In this document: positions 28,715 to 63,414 of the stretch, piece after piece | Layout: every line of letters begins with the position of its first letter | How positions within the stretch are numbered: the stretch's first letter is position 1 | Assembly (NCBI GenBank): GCA_035570235.1 | Contig: DATMML010000091.1 | Location: 124,001 to 188,000, forward strand | DNA from: Vicinamibacteria bacterium | GTDB lineage: Bacteria > Acidobacteriota > Vicinamibacteria > Fen-336 | Direction: 5' to 3' | Length of the DNA: 64,000 nt | The notes under the pieces: model-generated | What the model saw: the letters and a program-made list of their open reading frames with translations, nothing else | Database searches by the model: none | What the model was told of the DNA's origin: nothing | Program-made: the position numbers and the translations under genes

Positions 28715-28729
28715 CTAGCAGGAGTGAGG

Positions 28730-29350
28730 ATGGGCATCGTTGAGAGGCGGGAGCGGGAGCGGGAGGAGGTGCGGCGGAAAATCCTCGACGCCGCTCACGA
28801 ACTCTTCGCAAGCGAAGGCTACGACCGGGTCACGATGCGTCGCGTCGCAGAGGCCATAGAGTACTCCCCCACCACGATCTACAACCACTTCGAGGACAAG
28901 GACGACCTCGTGAACGCCCTCTGCGAGGAGGATTTCAGCAAGCTCCTCGCCCTCTTCGAGGGGCAGCCCCCCCCCGCGGACCCCGTGGAGTGGATCCGTC
29001 AGCTCGGCCGCGCCTACGCGACGTTTGGCCTGCAGAATCCCAACCACTACCGGTTCATGTTCATGACTCCCGCCAAGTTCGAGCGTGTCCCGCAGGCCAG
29101 CGCTTCGGGTGTGCAGTCCTTTAGCCTGTTCCGCTCGGCGGTGGAGAAGGCGATCACCGCCGGGCAGTTCCGGCCGGGTGACCCCCAGGCCCTGGCCCAA
29201 GTGCTGTGGGCGAGCCTCCATGGAGCGGTGGCCCTGCTGATCACCCTCCAGCCACAGCACTGGCCAGAGGGCGCGGCCGTTCCCGATCTAGTCGAGCGCG
29301 TGATCGAGAACGGGATCCGGGGCTTGGTCGCCCGTCCGGCCCGGGACTGA
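28730..29350 (+). CDS. TetR/AcrR family transcriptional regulator
   Basis: A 206-residue regulator. The N-terminal helix-turn-helix is canonical (ILDAAHELFASEGYDRVTMRRVAEAI, then YSPTTIYNHFEDKDDL at residues about 45-60). The C-terminal ligand domain is of the WHG/TetR_C type with a hydrophobic pocket region (FMFMTPAKFERV). GGAG lies five bases before the ATG; a GTG six bases upstream is also possible. It heads a four- or five-gene operon for a DevBCA-type exporter and most likely represses it, being relieved by the transported compound (inference from context). Confidence 0.93.
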   Translation: MGIVERREREREEVRRKILDAAHELFASEGYDRVTMRRVAEAIEYSPTTIYNHFEDKDDLVNALCEEDFSKLLALFEGQPPPADPVEWIRQLGRAYATFGLQNPNHYRFMFMTPAKFERVPQASASGVQSFSLFRSAVEKAITAGQFRPGDPQALAQVLWASLHGAVALLITLQPQHWPEGAAVPDLVERVIENGIRGLVARPARD

Positions 29351-29355
29351 AGGCC

Positions 29356-30480
29356 ATGGTCTCCCTCGCCCGCAAGAACCTCTTCCACGATCGGCTCCGC
29401 TTCGTGATCACGGTGGCGGGCGTGGCCTTCGCGGTGACCCTGGTGCTGGTGCAGGTGGGCTTGTTCATGGGCCTGCTCGACAAGGCCACGGTGACCATCG
29501 AGCACGCGAACGCCGAAGTCTGGATCACCTCTCACAACACCCCCAACGTGGACTTCGCCCACACTTTCCCGGAGACAGCCGTGCTGCGCGCGCGCGGTGT
29601 TCCCGGGGTGGCGAGGGCGGAGAACCTGCTCATCCAGTTCATGAACATCCAGCTCCCTAACGGCGCGGAGGAAGGTGCCCTCGTATACGCCATGAACGAC
29701 TTCGAGGGGTGGAACCTCCCTTGGGAAGTCAACGAGGGCGACGTGCGGGACCTGAAGCGGGGAGCTTATATATTGATGGACCGTTCGGCCAGCCGCCGTT
29801 TCGGACCGTTCGCGGTGGGCGACTACCGGGAGATCCTGGGCAAGCGCTTCAAGATCATCGGCACGACCTCCGGGGCCGCGTCCTTCACGACCGCACCCAT
29901 CGTCTTCATGGACTTCAAGAATGCCCAGGAGCTGCTCCAGACCGTGCAGGGCAAGACCCACTACGTCCTAGTCGGGCTGGAGCCGGGGGCCGACGCGGGG
30001 GCGGTGGCGGCGGAAATCCGAAGCCGGTTGCCCTTCAACGACGTCTACACGAAGGCCGCCTGGGCGGCGCGCTCTCGGGCTTACTGGGTGGTCTCTACCG
30101 GGTTGGGCATGAACATGGGCATCACCGTCTTCTTGGGGGTGCTGGTCGGTATCGTGATCGTGGCCCAGACCCTCTACACCTCGGCCGTGGAGCACGTGAA
30201 GGAGTTCGGGACCGTGAAAGCGATCGGCGGCTCGAACTGGGACATCTACCGAATCTTGGGGGAGCAGGCCGTGATCGCAGCCGTGGTGGGCTTCGTCCTA
30301 GGAGGGACGATGTCGCTAGCCATGCGCCCCCTGCTGGCCAGACTCTACCTCAACGTCATGGTGTCGCCCCGCTTTGCGCTTGCGGTTTTCGCGGGCACCG
30401 TGCTCATGTGCCTGGGAGCGGCCATGCTCTCCTTCCGGCGGGTCGCGACCATCGATCCCGCCCTCGTTTTTCGCGCTTGA
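29356..30480 (+). CDS. ABC transporter permease, DevC/FtsX-like
   Basis: A 374-residue inner-membrane permease. One transmembrane segment near the N-terminus (residues 14-38, ITVAGVAFAVTLVLVQVGLF) precedes a large periplasmic domain, then three more segments at about 250-275, 300-320 and 340-365. LKAIGGS-type sequence (TVKAIGGSNWDIYRILGEQA) is the cytoplasmic coupling helix of the FtsX/MacB/DevC fold. It pairs with the ATPase and adaptor that follow. DevBCA systems export glycolipids or other amphiphiles together with TolC. The ATG is five bases after the TetR stop. Confidence 0.9.
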   Translation: MVSLARKNLFHDRLRFVITVAGVAFAVTLVLVQVGLFMGLLDKATVTIEHANAEVWITSHNTPNVDFAHTFPETAVLRARGVPGVARAENLLIQFMNIQLPNGAEEGALVYAMNDFEGWNLPWEVNEGDVRDLKRGAYILMDRSASRRFGPFAVGDYREILGKRFKIIGTTSGAASFTTAPIVFMDFKNAQELLQTVQGKTHYVLVGLEPGADAGAVAAEIRSRLPFNDVYTKAAWAARSRAYWVVSTGLGMNMGITVFLGVLVGIVIVAQTLYTSAVEHVKEFGTVKAIGGSNWDIYRILGEQAVIAAVVGFVLGGTMSLAMRPLLARLYLNVMVSPRFALAVFAGTVLMCLGAAMLSFRRVATIDPALVFRA

Positions 30481-30497
30481 AGGCGTCGGGAGGTCCC

Positions 30498-31175
30498 ATG
30501 AACGACACGGTGCTGGCCGCGCAGGACGTGGTCAAGGTCTTCGAAGAGGGGGCCCAGAAAGTGGAGGTGCTGCGGGGCGTCTCCCTGGAGGTGAGCGCGG
30601 GCGAGGTGGTGGCCCTGGAAGGACCGTCCGGCTCCGGCAAGACCACTCTGCTCTCGATCATGGGCTGCATCCTCACCGCGACCTCGGGCCGGGTGACGGT
30701 GGCGGGCCGGGCCGTGGACCCGCAACGGCCCGACCTTCTGCGCGAGGTGCGGCGTCGCTCCATTGGCTTCGTCTTCCAGCAGTACAACCTCTTCCCGGCC
30801 CTCACCGCCCTCGAGAACGTGGAGTACTCGCTCAACGTCAAGGGCGTCCGGGGCGGGGCGGCGCAGGCCGAGGCGCGGCGCGTGCTGGAGCGGGTGGGCC
30901 TGGGCGACCGGCTGCACTTCCTTCCCCGCGACCTTTCGGGCGGGCAGAAGCAGCGGGTGGCGATCGCGCGGGCCCTGGCCGGGTCGCCCCGGGTCATCCT
31001 CGCCGACGAGCCCACCGCCAACCTGGACAGCGCGGTGGGCGTGCAGGTCCTGGAGCTGTTCCGGGACCTCGCCAAGACGGAGTCGAGGGGGCTTTTGGTC
31101 GTCACCCACGACCCCAAGGTACGCGCGGTGGCGGACCGGGTGGTGGGGATTCGGGACGGTCGGTTAGCGGCGTGA
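30498..31175 (+). CDS. ABC transporter ATPase, DevA/LolD/MacB-like
   Basis: A 225-residue ATPase with Walker A GPSGSGKTT (residues 42-50), Q-loop FVFQQYNLFP, signature LSGGQKQR, Walker B VILADEPTANLD and switch His in VVTHD. The sequence is of the LolD/DevA/MacB type that drives FtsX-fold permeases. It lacks any extra domain, in contrast to its paralogue at 59344. GGGAGG precedes the ATG, 17 bases after the permease stop. It energises the exporter encoded by the flanking genes. Confidence 0.95.
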   Translation: MNDTVLAAQDVVKVFEEGAQKVEVLRGVSLEVSAGEVVALEGPSGSGKTTLLSIMGCILTATSGRVTVAGRAVDPQRPDLLREVRRRSIGFVFQQYNLFPALTALENVEYSLNVKGVRGGAAQAEARRVLERVGLGDRLHFLPRDLSGGQKQRVAIARALAGSPRVILADEPTANLDSAVGVQVLELFRDLAKTESRGLLVVTHDPKVRAVADRVVGIRDGRLAA

Positions 31176-31227
31176 AGGCCGCGGTGGCGAGCGGGGCTCG
31201 ACGTGCGGGGGCGGGGAGATCGGAGTC

Positions 31228-32106
31228 ATGAGAATGAGAACGCTGGCCTTGAGTGGAATCGTGGGCGCGGTGCTGATCGTGACCGCGGGATGGCAGGCGC
31301 GGGGCGCCGCCCCCGCCGCGCCGGCCGCCGTGGGCGCCCCCGCCGCCGCCCGCGTGGTGGCGGCCGAGGGTCGGGTGGTCGCCTACCCCGGGGCCGAGGT
31401 CAAGGTGGGGGCCGAGCGGCCCGGCCGCCTGGTGCGGGTCGTCGTTCAAGAGGGCCAGACCGTCCACCGCGGTGACCTCCTGGCGGAGATCGAGTCCGAG
31501 GAACTGAGGGCCTCGCTGGCCGAGGCGCGGGCCCACGTTGCGGAGACGGAGGCGGAGGCCCGTCTGGCCGACCTTGCCCGCGAACGGCGCCGCCAGCTCT
31601 TCCAGGAGAAGATCGTGGCCGTGCACGACCTGGATCAGGCCACGCGAGACCTGGAGATCGCCCAGGCCCGGCGGGACACGGCCGGCGCCACCGTGGCCCG
31701 TTACGAGGCCCAGCTCCGCAAGTCCCGGATCCTGGCCCCCATCTCCGGCACCGTGACCCTGCGCAGGGTGGACGAGGGCCAAACCGTGGAGGCCGGCGAC
31801 GCCGCCTTCACGATCGCGGACTTGAGCCGGCTGCGCGTCGAGGGCGAGGCCCACGAGGCCGACGCGGGGGCCATTGCCGTCGGGGCTCCGGTCATCATCA
31901 GCGCCGAGGGCTTTCCGGGTAGGGCCTGGCGGGGGCGCGTCGAGGAAGTCCCGGACTCGGTCACCCTCCGTCGGCTCAAGCCCCAAGACCCGAGCCGCCC
32001 CACCGACACCCGGATCCTGGCCGTTAAGGTGGCGTTCTCGGAGCCCACCCCCCTGAAGCTCGGGACCACGGTGGAGCTCAAGATCGATCCGGCCCCCATT
32101 CCATGA
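31228..32106 (+). CDS. Periplasmic adaptor (HlyD/DevB-like membrane fusion protein)
   Basis: A 292-residue membrane fusion protein. It has an N-terminal membrane anchor or signal (residues 6-26), a split lipoyl domain (RPGRLVRVVVQEGQTVHRGD and SRILAPISGTVTLRRVDEGQ), a short alpha-helical hairpin between them (about 88-155, rich in Ala/Glu/Arg) and a beta-barrel region after ADLSRLRVEGEAHE. The hairpin would contact a TolC-like outer-membrane protein, which is not encoded here. It completes the TetR-DevC-DevA-DevB operon and overlaps the next gene as ATGA. Confidence 0.9.
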   Translation: MRMRTLALSGIVGAVLIVTAGWQARGAAPAAPAAVGAPAAARVVAAEGRVVAYPGAEVKVGAERPGRLVRVVVQEGQTVHRGDLLAEIESEELRASLAEARAHVAETEAEARLADLARERRRQLFQEKIVAVHDLDQATRDLEIAQARRDTAGATVARYEAQLRKSRILAPISGTVTLRRVDEGQTVEAGDAAFTIADLSRLRVEGEAHEADAGAIAVGAPVIISAEGFPGRAWRGRVEEVPDSVTLRRLKPQDPSRPTDTRILAVKVAFSEPTPLKLGTTVELKIDPAPIP

Positions 32107-53669: not shown

Positions 53670-54089
53670 CTACTTCGGATACCAGCGCTCGATGCGGCCA
53701 GCCGCGCCTGCGCTCTCGGCGAGCTGCGCTGGAGTTGCCCGGTAGACCTTTGCGATGACCGGCGCAGGTGCGTCCTCGAGAAAGGCCTCGATGCGTTCTC
53801 TGGTCGCCACGAACGACGCGGCCAGGTCTGGGAACGGGGCTTTGCCGACGATCACCAAGAGTCGCACTTGGTGCCGGATAACCGCCGCGAGCTCGTTCGG
53901 CTTGTACCGGATCCGGGTGTCGTGGCTCAGAGCGACCCATTCACGCTTGCCGACCTCCGCCAACCAGTCCTCGTCGGGACAGTCGGGCGGGAAGTGTTCG
54001 CGGTGTCGCTCGACGGCAAACCCCGCGCGCTTCAGGATCTCCGGAAAGGCGTTGCCGAGGTCGCGATCGGTGAAGAAGACGAGTGTCAA
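53670..54089 (-). CDS. VapC45-like PIN-domain toxin
   Basis: A 139-residue PIN-like ribonuclease toxin candidate. Acidic residues expected of the metal site are in FFTDRDLGNAFPEIL (Asp8, Asp10), the DEDW patch and LSHDTRIRY. Size and partner match the VapBC45 type of toxin-antitoxin pair (138-residue toxin with a DUF433 antitoxin of about 240 residues). It would cleave RNA when freed from its antitoxin. The start is TTG overlapping the antitoxin stop as TTGA, so translation is coupled to the antitoxin. Last gene of a leftward three-gene run in island segment 2. Confidence 0.75.
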   Translation of the reverse strand: MTLVFFTDRDLGNAFPEILKRAGFAVERHREHFPPDCPDEDWLAEVGKREWVALSHDTRIRYKPNELAAVIRHQVRLLVIVGKAPFPDLAASFVATRERIEAFLEDAPAPVIAKVYRATPAQLAESAGAAGRIERWYPK

Positions 54090-54832
54090 GCCGCCCGCTC
54101 GAAGACGACGGCCTCCTCAACCGCCGCGTTCGTGAGGTCGTAGTCGCGCGCGACATTCTCGACTTTCTCCCCTGCATCGATCCGGTCGAGGATGATACGT
54201 GTGGAAATGAACGCCTTGCCGACCACCGGACGGCCGAAGGAGATCTGCGGGTCGATCATGATAGGCTTGGCGTCGACACCCTCTGAAACCACGAACGGGT
54301 AGAGGCGAACTGCGGACCGGAGCTTCCCCCATTCGACACGCGTGAGGTGAGCTTCGAAGACCTTGCGCATCGCGAGCTGGCTTGAGGCGGAGAGGTTCAC
54401 TAGTTCTCCATATCGGTCGAGAAATAACTTCCCGCCGGCCGTCCGGAGCTCCTCCCGCAACAGTAGCTGGTCGATGTTCAGCTTCTGCTGAGCGTACGCG
54501 AGCGCCTGGCGAACCTCGACGAGCGGAACGCCGTGCTCGGTCCGGAGCGCTCGCAGGACGTGAGCCTCGATCAGGTTCGAGAAGGAAAGCGTCGCCGGGT
54601 CCCTCTTCGCCAGCCTCAAGACCGGGGCGAACTGGCTGAGCCCCTTGGCCGTCGGGTAGGGCCGTCCCAAGAACCAGGACCGCAACGTGGCGGGCGACAG
54701 CCTCAAGTAGCGGCCGGCTTCGGTGATCGAGTAGGCGGGCTCGTTACGTGAATCCAGCTTAGGCAGGGGCTCCTCCAGCCCGTATTGTGCCTCAAGTTCG
54801 CGGTCCAGGTGCCTCCTGACCGCAGAAAGCAT
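54086..54832 (-). CDS. DUF433-type (VapB45-like) antitoxin with HTH
   Basis: A 248-residue protein. The N-terminal part has a MerR-like helix-turn-helix (YSITEAGRYLRLSPATLRSW), the middle is helical, and the C-terminal DUF433 domain reads DPQISFGRPVVGKAFISTRIILDRIDAGEKVENVARDYDLT. This order and length fit antitoxins of the VapB45 kind, which bind their own promoter and neutralise the paired PIN toxin. It lies 78 bases after the primase-helicase gene on the same strand, so it may help keep that segment in the genome or act in the same defence response (inference). Confidence 0.78.
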   Translation of the reverse strand: MLSAVRRHLDRELEAQYGLEEPLPKLDSRNEPAYSITEAGRYLRLSPATLRSWFLGRPYPTAKGLSQFAPVLRLAKRDPATLSFSNLIEAHVLRALRTEHGVPLVEVRQALAYAQQKLNIDQLLLREELRTAGGKLFLDRYGELVNLSASSQLAMRKVFEAHLTRVEWGKLRSAVRLYPFVVSEGVDAKPIMIDPQISFGRPVVGKAFISTRIILDRIDAGEKVENVARDYDLTNAAVEEAVVFERAA

Positions 54833-54910: not shown

Positions 54911-57430
54911 TCAGGAGAAATCGAGAAAGTCCCCGGTGGGACGACGGCCGCCGGCGTCCTCGACCCGCTCTTCTTGCGTTGCCTCGACAAGGCCCAGCGG
55001 TGCGTCTTCTCGAGCGTACCCGATAGCCCGGTAACCACGCAGCCGACGTTCGAACATTCGAAGCAGCATCGGCACCTCGCGGTCCACGTAGTCGAAGATG
55101 CGAACCTCTGTCTTTCCTGGGTGCAGCCGATGAAGCCGGCCCGTATACTGAACGAGCGTCCCCTTCCACGAAACGGGTAGGGCCAGAAGGAGCGTGTCGA
55201 GCCGAGGGTCGTCAAACCCCTCTCCGATGTATCGCCCGGTCGCCAGGACGAGTCGCTCTTGCTCGGGCGGGATAGCTGAAAGCTGATCCTTGACTGCCTT
55301 TCTTGCGCCCGACGTCATGCCACCGTGAAGAACGACGAGATGCCGAGCGAACTTCCGTAACTTCTCGGCGAAGTAGTCGAGATGGTCCCGCCTCTCAGTC
55401 AGCAGAATCGGTGACCGCCCTTCCTCCAGGCAAGCGATCGCATCGTTGAGCACCAGCTCGTTGCGCCTTTCGTTCCTCGCCAGCGCAGCGTAGAGCTCCT
55501 GGATACTTGGAGCTCTGTCGCGGAGCGGAACCTTGAAGCGCGTCTCTCGCACGATGAGGCGGTGCTCGAACGGCCGCCGCGCAGCTTGGCCCTTCGGGTC
55601 GACCGTGAAGCGAGCGGGGCCGATCTGCATCTCGATGATTGGATCGTGGCCGTCTCGTCGCTGCGGCGTTGCTGTCAGCCCGACGACATATCGGGCTTTC
55701 ACCTCCGCCAACACACGTTCGAAGGAGACCGCGGGCACGTGGTGGCACTCGTCCACGATCACCTGTCCGTAATTGGCGACGAGGTCGGCAACCTTGCCGC
55801 TGCGGACGAGACTCTGGATCATGGCGACGTCCAAGTGGCCGTTCGCCGATCGCTTCCCCGCCCCAATCTGTCCGATCTCCTTGACGTCGATTCCCAGGAA
55901 GAGAGAGAGCTGAGCGAGCCACTGATCGAGCAGAGGTTGGCGGTGCACGAGGATGAGTGTGCTACAACCGCGCTCCGCGACGAGGTACGTCCCGACCACC
56001 GTCTTGCCGACTCCAGGTGGTGCGACGAAGGCCCCGATGTCGTGCGCGAGAAGGGCTCCCACCGCCTTTTTCTGCACTCCCGCCAGACTGCCCTGGAAAT
56101 GGAACCTGACAGCCTTTCCGCTCTCGCGTTGGTCCTCAACCTCCAGCGCGACCGAGTGCTGACGAAGCAGATCCTTGAGCTCGGGCCCAAGCCCTCGTGG
56201 TAGACCGATGTGCTGTGGAAATTCCTCGGCGCAGCCGACCACCCGCGGCGTCATTGCGGTCGATAACCGCATGCTCTGCTTCTTGTAGAACTCCGGGTTC
56301 TGGAACGCGGCGAGCCGCTTGATTTGGTTGAGCAATGGCGACGGTAGACCGACCTTTTCCACGAACAACCGCTGAGCGAGAACCGCGCGGACTCGCGAGG
56401 GCAGCGGCCCTAGGATCGGAACGAATTCTGCCCGGCCGGAAGGGGGACATGTCCACGGGGCTAACTCGTCCTCTTCCACTGGCTCGGCAGCCCGAACACC
56501 GATGACCGAGCCGCGCCGGGTCGCTTCGCCGGCGATGGTTTCGACGGTACGTCGGTCGATCCGCGGCACCCCGGCCAGGTGTGCCCACTGCCGGTCGTCG
56601 GGGTACGGCTGGAGGTGGTCGTCGAGGAAGACCGAGTTCCCGTGCTGCCGTGGTCCATGCTGGAGCGGTAGCGCGATCAGGTTGCCGAAGCCACCCCTGG
56701 GCATCGTGTCCTGGCTCGGAAACAGGCGGTCGTAGGAGTCCAAGCTGAGCTCATGACGGCGAGACATCGTCTCCGTGATGAGGTAACAGCCCATCTTTCG
56801 GGCGGCTGCCGCGGCGATGGGCTCGCTGAAGAAGAACCATACGTGCGCTCCGTTGCCCGAACGTGAGCGTTCGACCGAAGCAGGAAGGCCGACCTCCCGA
56901 CAGGTGGCAATGAACGCGGCGACGTCCTCGGCCCAGTTCCTCTTGTCGAAGTCGACAGCCAAGAACCAGCAGGCCTCGTCTTCCAGAAGGGGGTACACGC
57001 CCATGACATGCTGGCCTCGCAGGTGCGCCAGGATGGCCGCGTCATCCACCGGGACGAACGCCTGGTTCGGGCACTCGCCGCACTTTATCTTCGGAAGCTC
57101 GCACACTCCCCGCACGAACTTGTTCCGGCAGGCCGGTGCGTACCCCGGCTTGCTGGTCCGTTTGTTGACGAAGCGCGTGGGAAAGACATCCTGTCGACCG
57201 CGGAAAAGCTGCCGGAACAGCTTCACCTTCTGCTCAGCCGTCGTGGGTGTGGCCAATGCGCTGCTGGCGGGGAGACGCACCCGGATTCTTGTTTGCGTAG
57301 CATCGACGGAAGCCAACTCGGCCCTCAGGGCGGCGAGCCGGCCACGAGCTTGACTCTCCTCGCCGGCCAGTCGTGCGAGCACGGCCTCGACCGCCTCGAT
57401 CTCATTGATCAGTTGCTCTCGCCGTGACAC
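54911..57430 (-). CDS. AEP primase-SF2 helicase fusion (TOTE-conflict-system type)
   Basis: An 839-residue fusion. A coiled coil (residues 5-45) is followed by a Cys cluster (Cys101, 110, 117, 120), then an archaeo-eukaryotic primase domain with AVDFDKR (Asp160, Asp162) and the SGNGAHVWFFF histidine (His196). The C-terminal half is a superfamily 2 helicase: Walker A PPGVGKT (471-477), DECH (560-563), GLTATPQRRDG, and motifs V/VI in GEGFDDPRLDT and QYTGRLHRL. All catalytic motifs are intact. Such primase-helicase proteins are listed among TOTE conflict-system components, so an anti-invader role is likely. I use the GTG at 57430 with GGGGAGAG five bases upstream; GTG 57475 lacks a site. Confidence 0.85.
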   Translation of the reverse strand: MSRREQLINEIEAVEAVLARLAGEESQARGRLAALRAELASVDATQTRIRVRLPASSALATPTTAEQKVKLFRQLFRGRQDVFPTRFVNKRTSKPGYAPACRNKFVRGVCELPKIKCGECPNQAFVPVDDAAILAHLRGQHVMGVYPLLEDEACWFLAVDFDKRNWAEDVAAFIATCREVGLPASVERSRSGNGAHVWFFFSEPIAAAAARKMGCYLITETMSRRHELSLDSYDRLFPSQDTMPRGGFGNLIALPLQHGPRQHGNSVFLDDHLQPYPDDRQWAHLAGVPRIDRRTVETIAGEATRRGSVIGVRAAEPVEEDELAPWTCPPSGRAEFVPILGPLPSRVRAVLAQRLFVEKVGLPSPLLNQIKRLAAFQNPEFYKKQSMRLSTAMTPRVVGCAEEFPQHIGLPRGLGPELKDLLRQHSVALEVEDQRESGKAVRFHFQGSLAGVQKKAVGALLAHDIGAFVAPPGVGKTVVGTYLVAERGCSTLILVHRQPLLDQWLAQLSLFLGIDVKEIGQIGAGKRSANGHLDVAMIQSLVRSGKVADLVANYGQVIVDECHHVPAVSFERVLAEVKARYVVGLTATPQRRDGHDPIIEMQIGPARFTVDPKGQAARRPFEHRLIVRETRFKVPLRDRAPSIQELYAALARNERRNELVLNDAIACLEEGRSPILLTERRDHLDYFAEKLRKFARHLVVLHGGMTSGARKAVKDQLSAIPPEQERLVLATGRYIGEGFDDPRLDTLLLALPVSWKGTLVQYTGRLHRLHPGKTEVRIFDYVDREVPMLLRMFERRLRGYRAIGYAREDAPLGLVEATQEERVEDAGGRRPTGDFLDFS

Positions 57431-57639
57431 TGGAACTCTCCCCTTGTCGGGCCGACCCCCAGCGCGATCGCTCACCGTAGGATCGCTCGGAGTGATCTCG
57501 GTATTATTGGCCCACCGAGAGGAAATGCGGTGGACTTGATCGCCCAGGTGCTCCTCAGTGACACAGCTGCTGACACACCGGCGCCCGAGGACGACGGCGA
57601 TGAACAGGAGGGACCGGAAACGCTTGTGTCTAAAGGAAT

Positions 57640-58135: not shown

Positions 58136-59347
58136 GTGGTCGTGGGACGCCTGGGCACCACAAACATGCGTGCACCCTGGGCTCTGGCCTGGAGCCAGCT
58201 CGTGCGCGAGCGGGCCCGGTTCGCGATGGCCCTGGCCGGAGTCGGCTTCGCGGTCATCCTCATGCTCGTGCAGCTCGGGTTCCGGAGCGCTGCCTTCGAC
58301 GGCGCCGTCCGGCTGCACCGTGTCCTCGCCGCGGAGGTGGTGATTGTGCATCCGCGGACCAACGTCCTGGCGGACGTCGCCGGCTTCCCGCGCCGCCGGC
58401 TGGACCAGGCGCGGGCGGTCCCGGGCGTCCGCGCGGTGACCGGGGTCAACGCGCGACTCCTGCCCTGGACCAACCTGGACGAGGGGGGGAGCCGATACAT
58501 CTTTGTCGTGGGCATCGACCCCAGCGCGCACGCCCTCGACCTGCCCGAGGTGAACGCACAATTGGACCGGTTGAAGCTGCCCGAAACGGTCCTCTTCGAC
58601 CTCAGCTCCCGGCCCGAGTTTGGGATCTCCGGCGACCAGCCCCCCAGGCGGCAGGCGCCGGGAATGAACGGGGGCACCTCCCCCGCCGTGGAGATCAACG
58701 GCTACCGCGTGCAGGTGGCGGGGTTCTACCGGCTGGGCATCTCGTTCGCCATCGACGGCACGGTGGTGACCAGCGACCTGAACTTCCTCCGTCTCGTACC
58801 CGGGCACCCGCCGGGCCTGATCGAGATCGGCCTCGTGCAGCTGACTCCCGGCGCCGACCCCCTCCTCGTCCGGGACGACCTGGTGCGGACGCTTCCGCCG
58901 GATGTGCGCGTGCTCACCAGGAAGGAGTACATGGACCGCGAGGTACACTACTGGGACACGTCGATGTCGATCGGCATCGTCTTTGGGTTCGGCGTGCTGG
59001 TGGGGTTCGGAGTGGGGGCGGTGGTCGTGGCGCAGATCCTGTTCTCCGACGTCACGGACCACCTCGACGAGTACGCGACGCTGAAGGCCATCGGCTTCGG
59101 TAACCGCTATCTCTACGGGGTCGTGCTCTGGGAGGCCTTCTTCATGGCGTGTCTCGGCTTCGTACCGGGCGTGGGCGCCTCGGCCCTGCTTTACCGGCTG
59201 GTGGTGGCGATGACGGGCCTGCCCATGGTCTTCGACCCGACGAGGGCGGGCCTCGTCCTGGGCCTCACCGTGCTCATGTGCTTCGCCGCGGGGCTTCTGG
59301 CGCTACGCAAGCTGGAGACCGCCGATCCGGCGGAGATGTTCCGCTGA
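58136..59347 (+). CDS. ABC transporter permease, DevC/FtsX-like (second system)
   Basis: A 403-residue permease, paralogous to the one at 29356. One N-terminal transmembrane segment (about 30-52, FAMALAGVGFAVILMLVQLGF), a periplasmic domain, then three segments near 290-315, 340-365 and 375-395. The coupling helix reads DEYATLKAIGFGNRYLYG. The GTG at 58136 has GGGAGG six bases upstream; an ATG at 58166 would still keep the first segment. First gene of the exporter operon in island segment 3. Confidence 0.88.
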   Translation: MVVGRLGTTNMRAPWALAWSQLVRERARFAMALAGVGFAVILMLVQLGFRSAAFDGAVRLHRVLAAEVVIVHPRTNVLADVAGFPRRRLDQARAVPGVRAVTGVNARLLPWTNLDEGGSRYIFVVGIDPSAHALDLPEVNAQLDRLKLPETVLFDLSSRPEFGISGDQPPRRQAPGMNGGTSPAVEINGYRVQVAGFYRLGISFAIDGTVVTSDLNFLRLVPGHPPGLIEIGLVQLTPGADPLLVRDDLVRTLPPDVRVLTRKEYMDREVHYWDTSMSIGIVFGFGVLVGFGVGAVVVAQILFSDVTDHLDEYATLKAIGFGNRYLYGVVLWEAFFMACLGFVPGVGASALLYRLVVAMTGLPMVFDPTRAGLVLGLTVLMCFAAGLLALRKLETADPAEMFR

Positions 59348-60672
59348 GCTCCCCGGCCCCGCCCATTATCCGGGCCGAAGGCGTGTGCCATGCGTACGAC
59401 GCGGACACCCGGAGAGTGCTCGACGACATCACGCTCGAGGTCTCGCCTGGCGAGATCGTGATCATGACCGGCCCCTCGGGGTCGGGGAAGACGACGCTGC
59501 TCTCGTTGATCGGCGCGCTGCGTTCCACCCAGGACGGCAGCTTGCGCGTGCTCGGTCGCGAGCTGCGGGGGGCGGCTCGGGGCGACCTCCTCGAGGTGCG
59601 GAGGCGCATCGGCTACATTTTCCAGGCCCACAACCTGCTCGACTCGCTCTCCGCCCGGCGGAATGTGGAGATGTCCCTGGTGCACCAGCACGCCTGTCCC
59701 TCCCAGGAGATGGCGGGCCGGGCATCCGCCATGCTGCGCGCGGTGGGCCTGGAGGCGCACGTGGAGAAACGCCCGGCCCAGCTCTCGGGCGGGCAGAGAC
59801 AGCGGGTGGCCATCGCCCGAGCCCTGGTGGGAGAGCCGCGGATCGTGCTGGCGGACGAGCCCACCGCGTCCCTCGACAAGGAGTCGGGGCGCCAGGTCGT
59901 GCAGCTGATCCACGATCTGGCGCGGGGGAACGGTTGCGCCGTCCTGCTGGTGACCCACGACAACCGCATCCTGGACGTCGCCGACCGCGTCGTACACATG
60001 GAGGACGGCCGCCTGTCGTCGTTCACGGCGGCTGTCACAACGGACGCCCAGCGCATGTTGGAGGCGCTCGCTCGCAACACCCGCAAGGGCGACCTCGTGC
60101 AGCGCGTGGAGGACATGCCGCTGGCCTCGTTCTCGGCCCTGCTCGAGCAAGTCACCGCGGAGTCCGAGCAGCTCCTGCGCGTGCTGTCCCTGAGCCAGAA
60201 CCACGCCTTCGAGAGCATGCTCGACCAAGTGCTGAACGCGTTCACGCTCAAGATCGGCAGGCTCATGTCGGCGGACAGGGCGACGCTCTTCGTGGTCGAC
60301 GCCGCCTCCTCCGAGCTGTGGTCGAGGTCGGGAGAAGAGCACGTGGAGATCCGCGTCCCCCTGGCCGCCGGGATCGCCGGCTTCGTGGCACGGACAGGGC
60401 AGCCTCGGAACGTCCCCGACGCCTACGCGGAGCCACTGTTCAATCGGCGTGTCGACGAGGAGACAGGCTACCGGACGCGCTCGCTGCTCTCCATCCCGAT
60501 CGTGAACGCAGCCGGCGGCGTGTTCGCGGTGCTGCAGCTCCTGAACAAGATCGGCGGGCAGCCCTTCGGGGAGGCCGACGAGCGCCTGTCGCGCGAGCTC
60601 ACCGGCCGGCTGGGCGTGATCCTGGAGACGTGGACGACCATGAAACGCACCCAGCGCGACGTCGCGACGTGA
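59344..60672 (+). CDS. ABC ATPase fused to a GAF domain with NKFDE motif, probable CTG start
   Basis: A 442-residue fusion. Residues 5-225 are a LolD/DevA-type ATPase: Walker A GPSGSGKTT (43-51), LSGGQRQR, Walker B VLADEPTASLD and VTHD. A helical linker (235-290) leads to a GAF domain (about 292-430) with the cyclic-nucleotide signature NK-x5-F-x3-DE (Asn401, Lys402, Phe408, Asp412, Glu413). GAF domains with this signature bind cAMP or cGMP in phosphodiesterases and cyclases. No ATG/GTG exists at the expected start; a CTG overlaps the permease stop as CTGA with GGAG eight bases before it. The fusion suggests ligand-gated export (inference). Confidence 0.88.
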   Translation: MSSPAPPIIRAEGVCHAYDADTRRVLDDITLEVSPGEIVIMTGPSGSGKTTLLSLIGALRSTQDGSLRVLGRELRGAARGDLLEVRRRIGYIFQAHNLLDSLSARRNVEMSLVHQHACPSQEMAGRASAMLRAVGLEAHVEKRPAQLSGGQRQRVAIARALVGEPRIVLADEPTASLDKESGRQVVQLIHDLARGNGCAVLLVTHDNRILDVADRVVHMEDGRLSSFTAAVTTDAQRMLEALARNTRKGDLVQRVEDMPLASFSALLEQVTAESEQLLRVLSLSQNHAFESMLDQVLNAFTLKIGRLMSADRATLFVVDAASSELWSRSGEEHVEIRVPLAAGIAGFVARTGQPRNVPDAYAEPLFNRRVDEETGYRTRSLLSIPIVNAAGGVFAVLQLLNKIGGQPFGEADERLSRELTGRLGVILETWTTMKRTQRDVAT

Positions 60673-60793: not shown

Positions 60794-61861
60794 ATGAGTT
60801 CTGCGCCGTCCCCCACCTCGCGTCCCCTGTTCTGCTACTCCCGAGAATCGTCGCCCGACGCGGCGATCCTCGGGCCGACCGACGGGACACGTTCACGTGC
60901 ACGGCAGGGCGTCGCCGTTCTCTCGACTCTGGAGTCTCGACTGAGGGCGGCGGCTCTTCGGTTGTTCGGGAGCGCCGCTCTGTGGCTCCTCGCCGTCCTC
61001 GGTGCGGCCGGCTGCGGCGCCCACGGGGACGCCCGGGCCGAGGCGCATCCGTCCTTGCCGGCTCCCGCCGCGCGCGTGGCCGCGCGCGGGCGCCTGCAGC
61101 CGCGAGGCGGCCTTCAGCGGATCGCCGGGGCCTCCGACCCCGTCACCGTGGTCGCTCGCCTGCGCGTCGCGGAGGGCCAGTCCGTGCGCGCCGGGCAGGT
61201 CCTGGCCGAGCTCGACACCCTGCCCGCGCGGCAGTCCGCGGTGGAGCGCGGCGGGGCGGGCATCGCCGTGCGGCGGGCCACCATCGATCGCCTGCGGGCC
61301 GAGTTGGCGATGACCGAGGCCGAGGAGCGACGGCAGGCACGCCTGCACGCAGAGGGAGTGACCGCCGCCGCTGTCCGCGAGGACGCAGCCAGCCGGGTCG
61401 AAGCCGGCCGGGCGGCGCTCAAAGAGGCCGAGGCGGCGCTGGCCCTGGCCGAAGCGGACCTCCGCGGCGCACAGGGCGAGCTCGCCCGGGCCGTCGTCCG
61501 AGCCCCCGTCGGCGGTCTGGTGGTCAAGGTGATCGCCCATGCCGGCGAGCAGGTCGGCCCCGCCGGGATCCTGGAGCTGGCTGAGACCGGGCTCATGTAC
61601 GCGGTGGCGGAGGTCTACGAGACCGATGTCGCCCGCGTCCGTCCCGGCCAGCAGGCGATCGTCCGCAGCGCGGCGCTCAGGGACGCGCTGGCGGGCGTCG
61701 TCGAGCGCGTGGGCATGAAGGTCGCTAGGCTGGACGCGCTCGGAACCGATCCCGCGGCGAGGAGCGACGCCCGCGTGGTGGAGGTGTGGATCTCCCTCGC
61801 GGACCCCGCGCGCGTAGCCGGCCTCACCGATCTCGAGGTCCAAGTCGAGATCACACCCTGA
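60794..61861 (+). CDS. Periplasmic adaptor (HlyD/DevB-like), second system
   Basis: A 355-residue membrane fusion protein. The hydrophobic segment comes late (about residues 55-73, LFGSAALWLLAVLGAAGCG), so the first 45 residues may be a cytoplasmic extension or an over-long start. The split lipoyl halves are ARLRVAEGQSVRAGQVLAEL and ARAVVRAPVGGLVVKVIAHAGEQ, joined by a long Ala/Glu/Arg-rich helical hairpin, then YAVAEVYETDVARVRPGQ in the barrel. It bridges the permease to an outer-membrane channel. Third gene of the exporter operon, 121 bases after the ATPase. Confidence 0.85.
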   Translation: MSSAPSPTSRPLFCYSRESSPDAAILGPTDGTRSRARQGVAVLSTLESRLRAAALRLFGSAALWLLAVLGAAGCGAHGDARAEAHPSLPAPAARVAARGRLQPRGGLQRIAGASDPVTVVARLRVAEGQSVRAGQVLAELDTLPARQSAVERGGAGIAVRRATIDRLRAELAMTEAEERRQARLHAEGVTAAAVREDAASRVEAGRAALKEAEAALALAEADLRGAQGELARAVVRAPVGGLVVKVIAHAGEQVGPAGILELAETGLMYAVAEVYETDVARVRPGQQAIVRSAALRDALAGVVERVGMKVARLDALGTDPAARSDARVVEVWISLADPARVAGLTDLEVQVEITP

Positions 61862-61931: not shown

Positions 61932-62339
61932 ATGATCTCCAGGACCGACCGTGAGGTGGGCGACGTCGTCGTGACTGCCAGTGACGATCACGCGGCGAGG
62001 GTGCTGGAGATGCATGCGGTCGACTACCTGGTGAAGCCGGGGGAGCCCGAGCGGCTGGAGGCGGGCGCGAAGAGCGCCGGCCCGGAGCGCGTGCTCGTCC
62101 GCCAGGGGAGCCGCGTCCGCCTGCTGGGAGTGGACGACATCGACTACATCTCGGCCCAGGAGGACCGGGTCCTACTGCGCCAGGGCGCCGAAGAGTACCT
62201 GAAGGACCGGAGCCTGGCCGACAAGGAGGCGCCCCTGGGTCCCGCCCGCTTCGTGAGCATCCACGAGGACTGCTTGGTCAACGTCCAGCGGCTCCCGGAG
62301 ATCGAGCAGGACGACGCGGCGGCAGCATGGCCGTCCTGA
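61932..62339 (+). pseudogene. Remnant of a LytTR response regulator
   Basis: The 135-codon frame starts inside a receiver domain: VVTASDDHAARVLEMHAVDYLVKPGEPERL equals beta4-alpha4-beta5, so the phospho-acceptor Asp half is missing. The rest is a LytTR DNA-binding domain (RVLVRQGSRVRLLGVDDIDYI, then FVSIHEDCLVNVQRLPEIE), in which the usual HRSxLVN is altered. It ends early in an Ala-rich tail. This looks like a decaying two-component regulator that once belonged to the exporter locus. It could still bind DNA, but could not be phosphorylated. Confidence 0.7.
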
Positions 62340-62442
62340 CAGATGGTACCCGTCTGTCCATGAGCGCGGCGGGGCTCGTGCGCCTGCAGCGGCTCCTGTA
62401 GCTACCATGGCCCGGGCGCGCGCGGCGGGACGGAGGCGCGTG

Positions 62443-63414
62443 ATGACCCTCCGCGACATCGTCTCCATCGTCGAGCACGATCTGGCCGCGGTGGAGGTCC
62501 TCCTGGAGGAGCAGCTCCGTTCCGGCCTGCTCCCCCAAGAGGACGTCGGGCACCTCCTCCAGGAACGTGGGGAAAGGCGCCTCCACCCCGCCCTGTTGCT
62601 GCTGGGCTGCGGTTTGACCGGGTACAACGGCGACCGGGCGGCCCCGCTCGGAGTGGCGGTGGAGCTCATCCACACCGCCACCCGCCTGCACGACGGCATC
62701 ATCGGCGAGGTCCCGCTGCGCGCGGCCTGCCGCCTCGGCCACCGTTGGGGCAAAGATCTCACCGTGCTCCTCGGCGACTTCCTCCAGGTGAAGTGGGTGT
62801 CGATGGCGCTCTCGCAGGACGACCTGCGTATCCCGCGCCTGCTCCTGGACGTCACCCTGCGCATCGTCGAGGGCCAGATTCTGGACCGGGAGCGCTACGG
62901 CGACCCCGATGTACCCGAGGCCGACCACCTGGACATCGTCCGGCGCAAGTCCGCGGACCTGTTCTCGGCCTGCCTGCGCATCGGCGGCATCCTCGGCAAC
63001 GTTGGGGAGGAGCGGGAGCACGCGCTGGCGAGCTACGGTCTGAATGTCGGGATGTGCCTGCAGGTCGTCGACGACATCCTCGACTTCACGGCTCACGGGA
63101 GGGAAGAGGGCAGGGCGGCCGCCTCCAGCCTCGGGGACGGCAGGGTCACCCTGCCAGCGATCTACCTCATGCGACGCGCGGGAGCGCGCGGGATCGAGGC
63201 GGTCTCGACCATCCTCCGGGACCGTGCCTTCGACCACGTCTCGCGCGAGGAGATCGTGTCCCTCGTGCGTGAGCACGGCGCCCTCGACCAGGCCACAGCC
63301 GCCGCGGAGCGCTACGCGGAGTCCGCACGCCAGGACCTCGGCGCCTTCGGGCCGTCGAGCTACCGGGAAGCCCTGGAGAGGGTCCCCCACTACATCCTCT
63401 CGCGCCACCACTGA
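62443..63414 (+). CDS. Polyprenyl synthetase-like protein with degenerate first Asp-rich motif
   Basis: A 323-residue protein of the trans-isoprenyl diphosphate synthase fold. The second Asp-rich motif is intact (LQVVDDILDF), and LIHTATRLHD, VLLGDFL and RVTLPAIYL match the family. The first motif, DDxxD in active enzymes, is D84-G-I-I-G88, and the adjacent RRG-x-P-T segment is also replaced (LRAACRLGHRWG). Loss of two of three Mg-binding Asp argues for an inactive or partner-type subunit. The ATG at 62443 has GGAGG six bases before it; an ATG at 62407 has none. Last gene of segment 3. Confidence 0.85.
   Translation: MTLRDIVSIVEHDLAAVEVLLEEQLRSGLLPQEDVGHLLQERGERRLHPALLLLGCGLTGYNGDRAAPLGVAVELIHTATRLHDGIIGEVPLRAACRLGHRWGKDLTVLLGDFLQVKWVSMALSQDDLRIPRLLLDVTLRIVEGQILDRERYGDPDVPEADHLDIVRRKSADLFSACLRIGGILGNVGEEREHALASYGLNVGMCLQVVDDILDFTAHGREEGRAAASSLGDGRVTLPAIYLMRRAGARGIEAVSTILRDRAFDHVSREEIVSLVREHGALDQATAAAERYAESARQDLGAFGPSSYREALERVPHYILSRHH

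Follow-up and report, generated by a model that had tools for sequence, protein, structure and literature searches.

Within a window of 64,000 nucleotides from a Vicinamibacteria bacterium, meaning the whole stretch of DNA that was analysed, we found a gene that joins a DevA-type exporter ATPase to a C-terminal GAF domain. The gene, here called devA::GAF (59344..60672, + strand), encodes a protein of 442 aa and is accompanied by genes for the other components of a DevBCA-type exporter. Sequence matches in the PDB, a fold search and phylogenetic trees support placing the GAF domain in the cyclic-nucleotide (CyaB/PDE) branch of GAF domains. Taken together, the observations are best explained by a GAF-bearing DevBCA exporter that would be gated by a cyclic mononucleotide, an explanation in which our confidence falls slightly below even. 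Direct gating by a cyclic nucleotide, most likely cAMP, is thus put forward as a plausible reading of the sequence.

The genes are ordered devC, devA::GAF and devB, all on the + strand. The product of devC (58136..59347) is a MacB/FtsX-type permease that matched the devC model TIGR01185 with 389.5 bits (cut-off 290.35) and the FtsX family PF02687; the first GTG of the frame was taken as its start, and translation probably begins at a codon further into the frame. The fusion protein scored 316 bits with the NCBIfam model TIGR02982 (heterocyst_DevA, cut-off 295.8), and devB (60794..61861), which codes for a HlyD-type membrane fusion protein and has an uncertain start codon, scored 185.5 bits with TIGR02971 (heterocyst_DevB, cut-off 129). 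Since the DevA, DevC and DevB models were all matched above their cut-offs in adjacent genes, the locus reads as a complete DevBCA-type exporter. The original prediction that the ATPase belongs to an exporter is supported by the TIGR02982 match within this full set.

The devA::GAF frame is open along 59344-60672 and overlaps devC by four bases. The codon at 59344 is CTG, which overlaps the stop codon of devC as CTGA, and a GGAG that may serve as a ribosome-binding site lies 8 nt before it (59332..59335). This overlap, the upstream GGAG and the ATG that relatives carry near the same place make the CTG most likely the start codon, although it is unusual and unproven.

Around the locus, a short frame at 61932-62339 (+) contains the end of a receiver domain and part of a LytTR domain and looks like a truncated or decayed response regulator; it is followed by a polyprenyl diphosphate synthase-like gene (62407-63414, +) that reached the cut-off of no NCBIfam equivalog. 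Just upstream of the exporter, a gene on the − strand (54911-57475) encodes 854 aa with the archaeo-eukaryotic primase domain of TOTE conflict systems (PF22548, E 2.4e-94) ahead of a helicase, and this protein is likely a component of a conflict system. Two overlapping genes at 53670-54832 (−), one for an HTH and DUF433 protein (54086-54832) and one for a 139-aa partner, resemble a toxin-antitoxin pair. An Rfam search of the window returned one tRNA as its sole match.

The locus has the DevA, DevC and DevB families and the operon components in common with the DevBCA-HgdD (TolC) heterocyst glycolipid exporter of Anabaena and the paralogues of that exporter. A further likeness is seen in G253, a distant Acidobacteriota member, where an outer membrane factor gene adjoins the fusion. 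DevA is usually a single-domain ATPase, which does not strictly define it. The cyanobacterial DevA copies that were retrieved end after the ATPase, with matches stopping near residues 225-245, whereas a linker and a GAF domain are added here. The window also holds a second DevC-DevA-DevB-like set (29356-32106, +), with a TetR-like regulator gene in front so that the whole spans 28724-32106. Its ATPase (30513-31175) has 220 aa and lacks a GAF domain, and it scored 231 bits with TIGR02982, under the DevA cut-off of 295.8. Pfam and NCBIfam therefore agree with the expectation that the paralogue near 30498 is a plain single-domain ATPase, unlike the fusion.

The fusion protein consists of three parts. 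Residues 1-224 form the nucleotide-binding domain (59344..60015), which is delimited by PF00005, the sequence and invariant alignment columns; the Pfam match to ABC_tran covers residues 26-175 (E 2e-33). Its Walker A motif GPSGSGKTT (59470-59496), signature LSGGQ (59782-59796), Walker B motif IVLADE (59842-59859) and H-loop His205 (59956-59958) are all intact and (nearly) invariant among relatives in the alignment. A linker of about 65 residues follows (225-289; 60016..60210), which AlphaFold2 predicts to be helical. In an AlphaFold2 model of linker and GAF, helices were predicted at model residues 3-22, 26-32 and 36-59 of the linker with low to moderate confidence, while the pLDDT is about 90 in the GAF core. 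The GAF domain occupies residues 290-428 (60211..60627) according to PF01590, AlphaFold2 and fold matches; in Pfam it was found at residues 293-425 with 54.8 bits (cut-off 22.4), and CBS was absent. A model of the full-length protein gave a pTM of 0.49 and a linker pLDDT of 41-71, a low confidence in the domain placement, and this placement underlies no claim made here.

Because the assembly is a draft of 138 contigs and the gene starts with CTG, the frame might be thought an assembly or gene-finding artefact that joins two genes, or else a gene in decay. Both are highly improbable and are rejected on the basis of homologues: other genomes, spread over four phyla and including one complete plasmid record, share this junction and linker; the ATPase motifs are intact, and Ka/Ks between relatives is low. 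A full-length fusion is present in a Vicinamibacteria MAG (L009, whose protein recurs unchanged as G411/L155), and others were found in a Binatia MAG (L010), a Myxococcales MAG (L011), the single-contig genome of G253 (L119) and three genomes from a single genus of the source's own family (L090-L092, L096), with two copies in one of them. The fusion of Nostoc sp. C052 lies on a complete plasmid and is annotated just as 'ATP-binding cassette domain-containing protein'. Databases thus already contain such fusions under generic names. The usual gene order among the fusions is devB-devC-devA::GAF, and the linker is 35-54% identical over 65 columns between fusions of different phyla.

The fusion is rare and patchy, yet recurrent in four phyla. 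It was detected in 5 of the 17 genomes of the order, and a sample of 396 genomes of the phylum yielded 2 fusions with the window protein counted. One further candidate, G326, was rejected as a fusion, as its sequence reads cNMP-GAF-GAF-PAS-cyclase. In a tree of the nucleotide-binding domains that includes the Nostoc copy, one fusion event and several were left unseparated (p-AU 0.458); when this copy was left out, the fusions grouped with a support of just 74/74. Comparison of G011/G013 with G012 gave a Ka/Ks of about 0.08 for the linker and about 0.16-0.18 for the GAF domain, and the value for the ATPase (G011-G012) was 0.14. These values indicate purifying selection on devA::GAF, and within the compared pair the linker has changed most slowly.

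Among solved structures, the tandem GAF of Anabaena CyaB2 (1YKD, E 1.5e-47) comes closest to the GAF domain in sequence, and further PDB matches were obtained with PDE2A, PDE10A, PmGH, PDE5 and PDE6. A Foldseek search with the GAF model gave PmGH as top match and also returned CyaB2, PDE2A, PDE10A, PDE5, PDE6 and cAMP-bound Lcd1. In GAF trees, which were of small sampling and also took in the relatives' NKFDE GAFs from GAF-GAF-PAS-cyclases and PP2C-type proteins, a supported branch (98/93) set the fusion GAFs and CyaB2 GAF-A apart from the rest, and the grouping was kept when the Nostoc copy was added (99/94). Derivation of the fusion GAF from the GAF of a CyaB-type cyclase is the best reading of these sequence data, though not proof. 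CyaB2 itself binds cAMP through GAF-A/GAF-B, and it shares NKFDE and the Arg/Thr/Asp contacts with the fusion GAF. It differs in having a tandem GAF, a cyclase output and Ile308, whereas the window protein has a single GAF, an ABC ATPase output and Ser. PmGH, a GAF-HD-GYP protein of Persephonella marina (4MCW), resembles the fusion in that a close GAF is attached to a non-cyclase output. This output is an HD-GYP domain, unlike the ABC ATPase here, and the accessible part of the PmGH paper reports no ligand for the GAF (PMC4159591), which counts against the cyclic-nucleotide reading.

The NKFDE motif is present in full as N401-K402-IGGQP-F408-GEA-D412-E413 (60544..60582), an exact NK-x5-F-x3-DE. 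Pfam, the translation and homologues in four phyla thus uphold the architecture that had been proposed, an ATPase with a C-terminal GAF domain carrying the intact motif. The motif is not a generic feature of GAF domains, since NKFDE with a spacing of 4-9 residues occurs in 2 of the 44 GAF matches of the own genome. Further NKFDE GAFs lie in this genome only at C117:2722-3228 and C84:17686-18117, and the motif on C117 is split by a long insert. In the fusions L010, L090 and L096, NKFDE shows one-residue changes. When NKFDE is mutated in PDE2 and PDE5, binding is weakened or lost, but its residues make no ligand contact and the motif stabilises the fold (PMC11977230), so that the signature alone is no proof of binding. 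This agrees with another reading, in which the GAF domain would be a sensor or regulatory domain for the cargo, for some other metabolite or for a partner protein and the ancestral NKFDE scaffold would merely have been kept. GAFs of the same branch also sit on PP2C-type and HD-GYP proteins, as such a role would allow, whereas the nearest solved relatives are cyclic-nucleotide GAFs. We give this reading a substantial but clearly minor share of the probability.

The residues of the ligand pocket bear on the same question. In CyaB2 GAF-B, cAMP is contacted by R291 (adenine N1), T293 (N6/N7), I308 (adenine), D356 and N359 (PMC4411481), which are read in the aligned window protein as R, T, Ser, D and T. 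R312 and T314 of ADRAT (60277..60285) correspond to R291 and T293 (PMC4411481), Ser329 (60328..60330) takes the adenine-contacting position of Ile308, and D371, T374 and T378 of DEETGYRT (60454..60477) align with D356/N359/T363. PDE2A, PDE10A and CyaB2 GAF-A likewise have Thr at the position of N359. Most polar contact residues are thus preserved in the window protein and in the relatives close to it, which speaks against a ligand of another kind, and the alignment shows a conserved pocket in the majority of the fusion family. Ser329, on the other hand, alters a base-contact position and is the weak point of the cyclic-nucleotide pocket reading; among the other eight aligned fusions, seven have Ile or Val at this position and the Nostoc copy has Asn. 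The I308A mutation of CyaB2 GAF-B lowers cAMP binding and does not abolish it (PMC4411481). Two fusions have lost part of the pocket: in G253 it is decayed (R to H, D to G, NK lost), and in the Myxococcales copy NKFDE is degenerate and the pocket partly altered. Both retain the GAF domain, which indicates that the domain is useful even then and is in line with a ligand other than a cyclic nucleotide.

We also examined cyclases as a source of the ligand. The own genome has four class III cyclase matches, at least two of which are FHA-GAF-cyclases whose GAFs lack NKFDE. FHA-GAF-class III cyclases of this genome lie on C73 and C114, with the adenylyl-type Lys and Thr/Ser in their cyclase domains. 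Among the other genomes with a fusion, class III cyclases were detected in 6 of 7, and the Myxococcales genome has 3 cyclase matches despite its degenerate NKFDE. G253 (99% complete) lacks both class III and class I cyclases and also has the most decayed pocket (n=1); class I adenylyl cyclase was found in none of the five genomes tested. Absence of cyclases together with decay of the pocket in G253 is what cyclic-nucleotide sensing predicts, in one case. As 103 of 149 genomes of the phylum (69%) have cyclases, their presence gives weak support, and co-occurrence was rejected as proof of the ligand because of this base rate.

Judging from the gene neighbourhoods of the relatives, the cargo may be a glycan or lipid of the envelope, or else a secondary metabolite. 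The L009 fusion is found beside genes for a glycosyltransferase, a sugar epimerase, an ATP-grasp protein and a DegT aminotransferase. On the Nostoc sp. C052 plasmid pC052_C (L172:2821-11563), DevB-DevC-DevA::GAF is embedded in a PKS/NRPS cluster that also contains genes for carbamoyltransferase and diaminobutyrate transaminase, and this pump possibly exports the product of the cluster. The glycan genes beside L009 and the PKS/NRPS cluster of Nostoc would also suit sensing of the cargo by the GAF domain. Next to the Myxococcales fusion, a gene at L011:870-2720 (−) encodes a cyclic-nucleotide-binding domain and a patatin phospholipase.

For gating by a cyclic mononucleotide, the most likely mechanism is the following. 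Two ATPase subunits would sit under a DevC dimer, and the helical linker, together with the long terminal helix, would let their C-terminal GAF domains pair below the ATPases. A cyclic mononucleotide, presumably cAMP and in second place cGMP, would enter the GAF pocket and shift the helices, by which closure of the ATPase dimer would be either favoured or blocked. Export might then be turned up or down without new transcription. Transmission through the linker is proposed by analogy with the CBS domains of OpuA and from the dimeric habit of the GAF branch. Pairing of this kind could also be the only task of the GAF domain, which would then bind no ligand and would stabilise the two ATPases by dimerising or tethering them. 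Terminal-helix GAF dimers are usual in the branch, and the PmGH dimer relies on its GAF and long helix (PMC4159591); the slow evolution of the linker in the pair compared and the tolerance of a decayed pocket in G253 point the same way. However, in the majority of the fusions the pocket residues persist along with all or most of NKFDE, for which a pure dimeriser has no obvious need, and we regard this possibility as unlikely. The original prediction of a cyclic-nucleotide-gated exporter is partly supported: the exporter ATPase and the cyclic-nucleotide-branch GAF stand, while binding of a cyclic nucleotide and gating of the pump are plausible.

The gating principle is not new, as the CBS domains of OpuA bind c-di-AMP and shut this importer, a known case of direct gating by a cyclic dinucleotide (PMC10710835). 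The osmolyte importers OpuA/OpuC carry the ligand domain on the ATPase subunit, as here, and are under direct control of a cyclic nucleotide messenger (PMC10710835). They differ in being importers with CBS domains and c-di-AMP as ligand, whereas we describe a MacB-type exporter with a GAF domain and, according to Pfam, no CBS; the domain and the transporter class are new. In the open-access literature that was searched, no DevA- or MacB-type ATPase was described as bearing a GAF domain. The devA::GAF product is a soluble protein of ATPase and GAF, is easy to test, and makes a specific prediction.

Control of tripartite exporters is usually described at the level of transcription, and a TetR-like gene stands beside the paralogue in this window. 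To our knowledge, little is known about fast, ligand-driven control of such exporters. Our data may tentatively be taken to define a MacB/DevBCA-type exporter family, found in four phyla, that would be switched directly by cAMP (or cGMP) via a CyaB-type GAF domain. If the GAF domain binds cAMP, the second-messenger state would be tied directly to the export of envelope or secondary-metabolite products.
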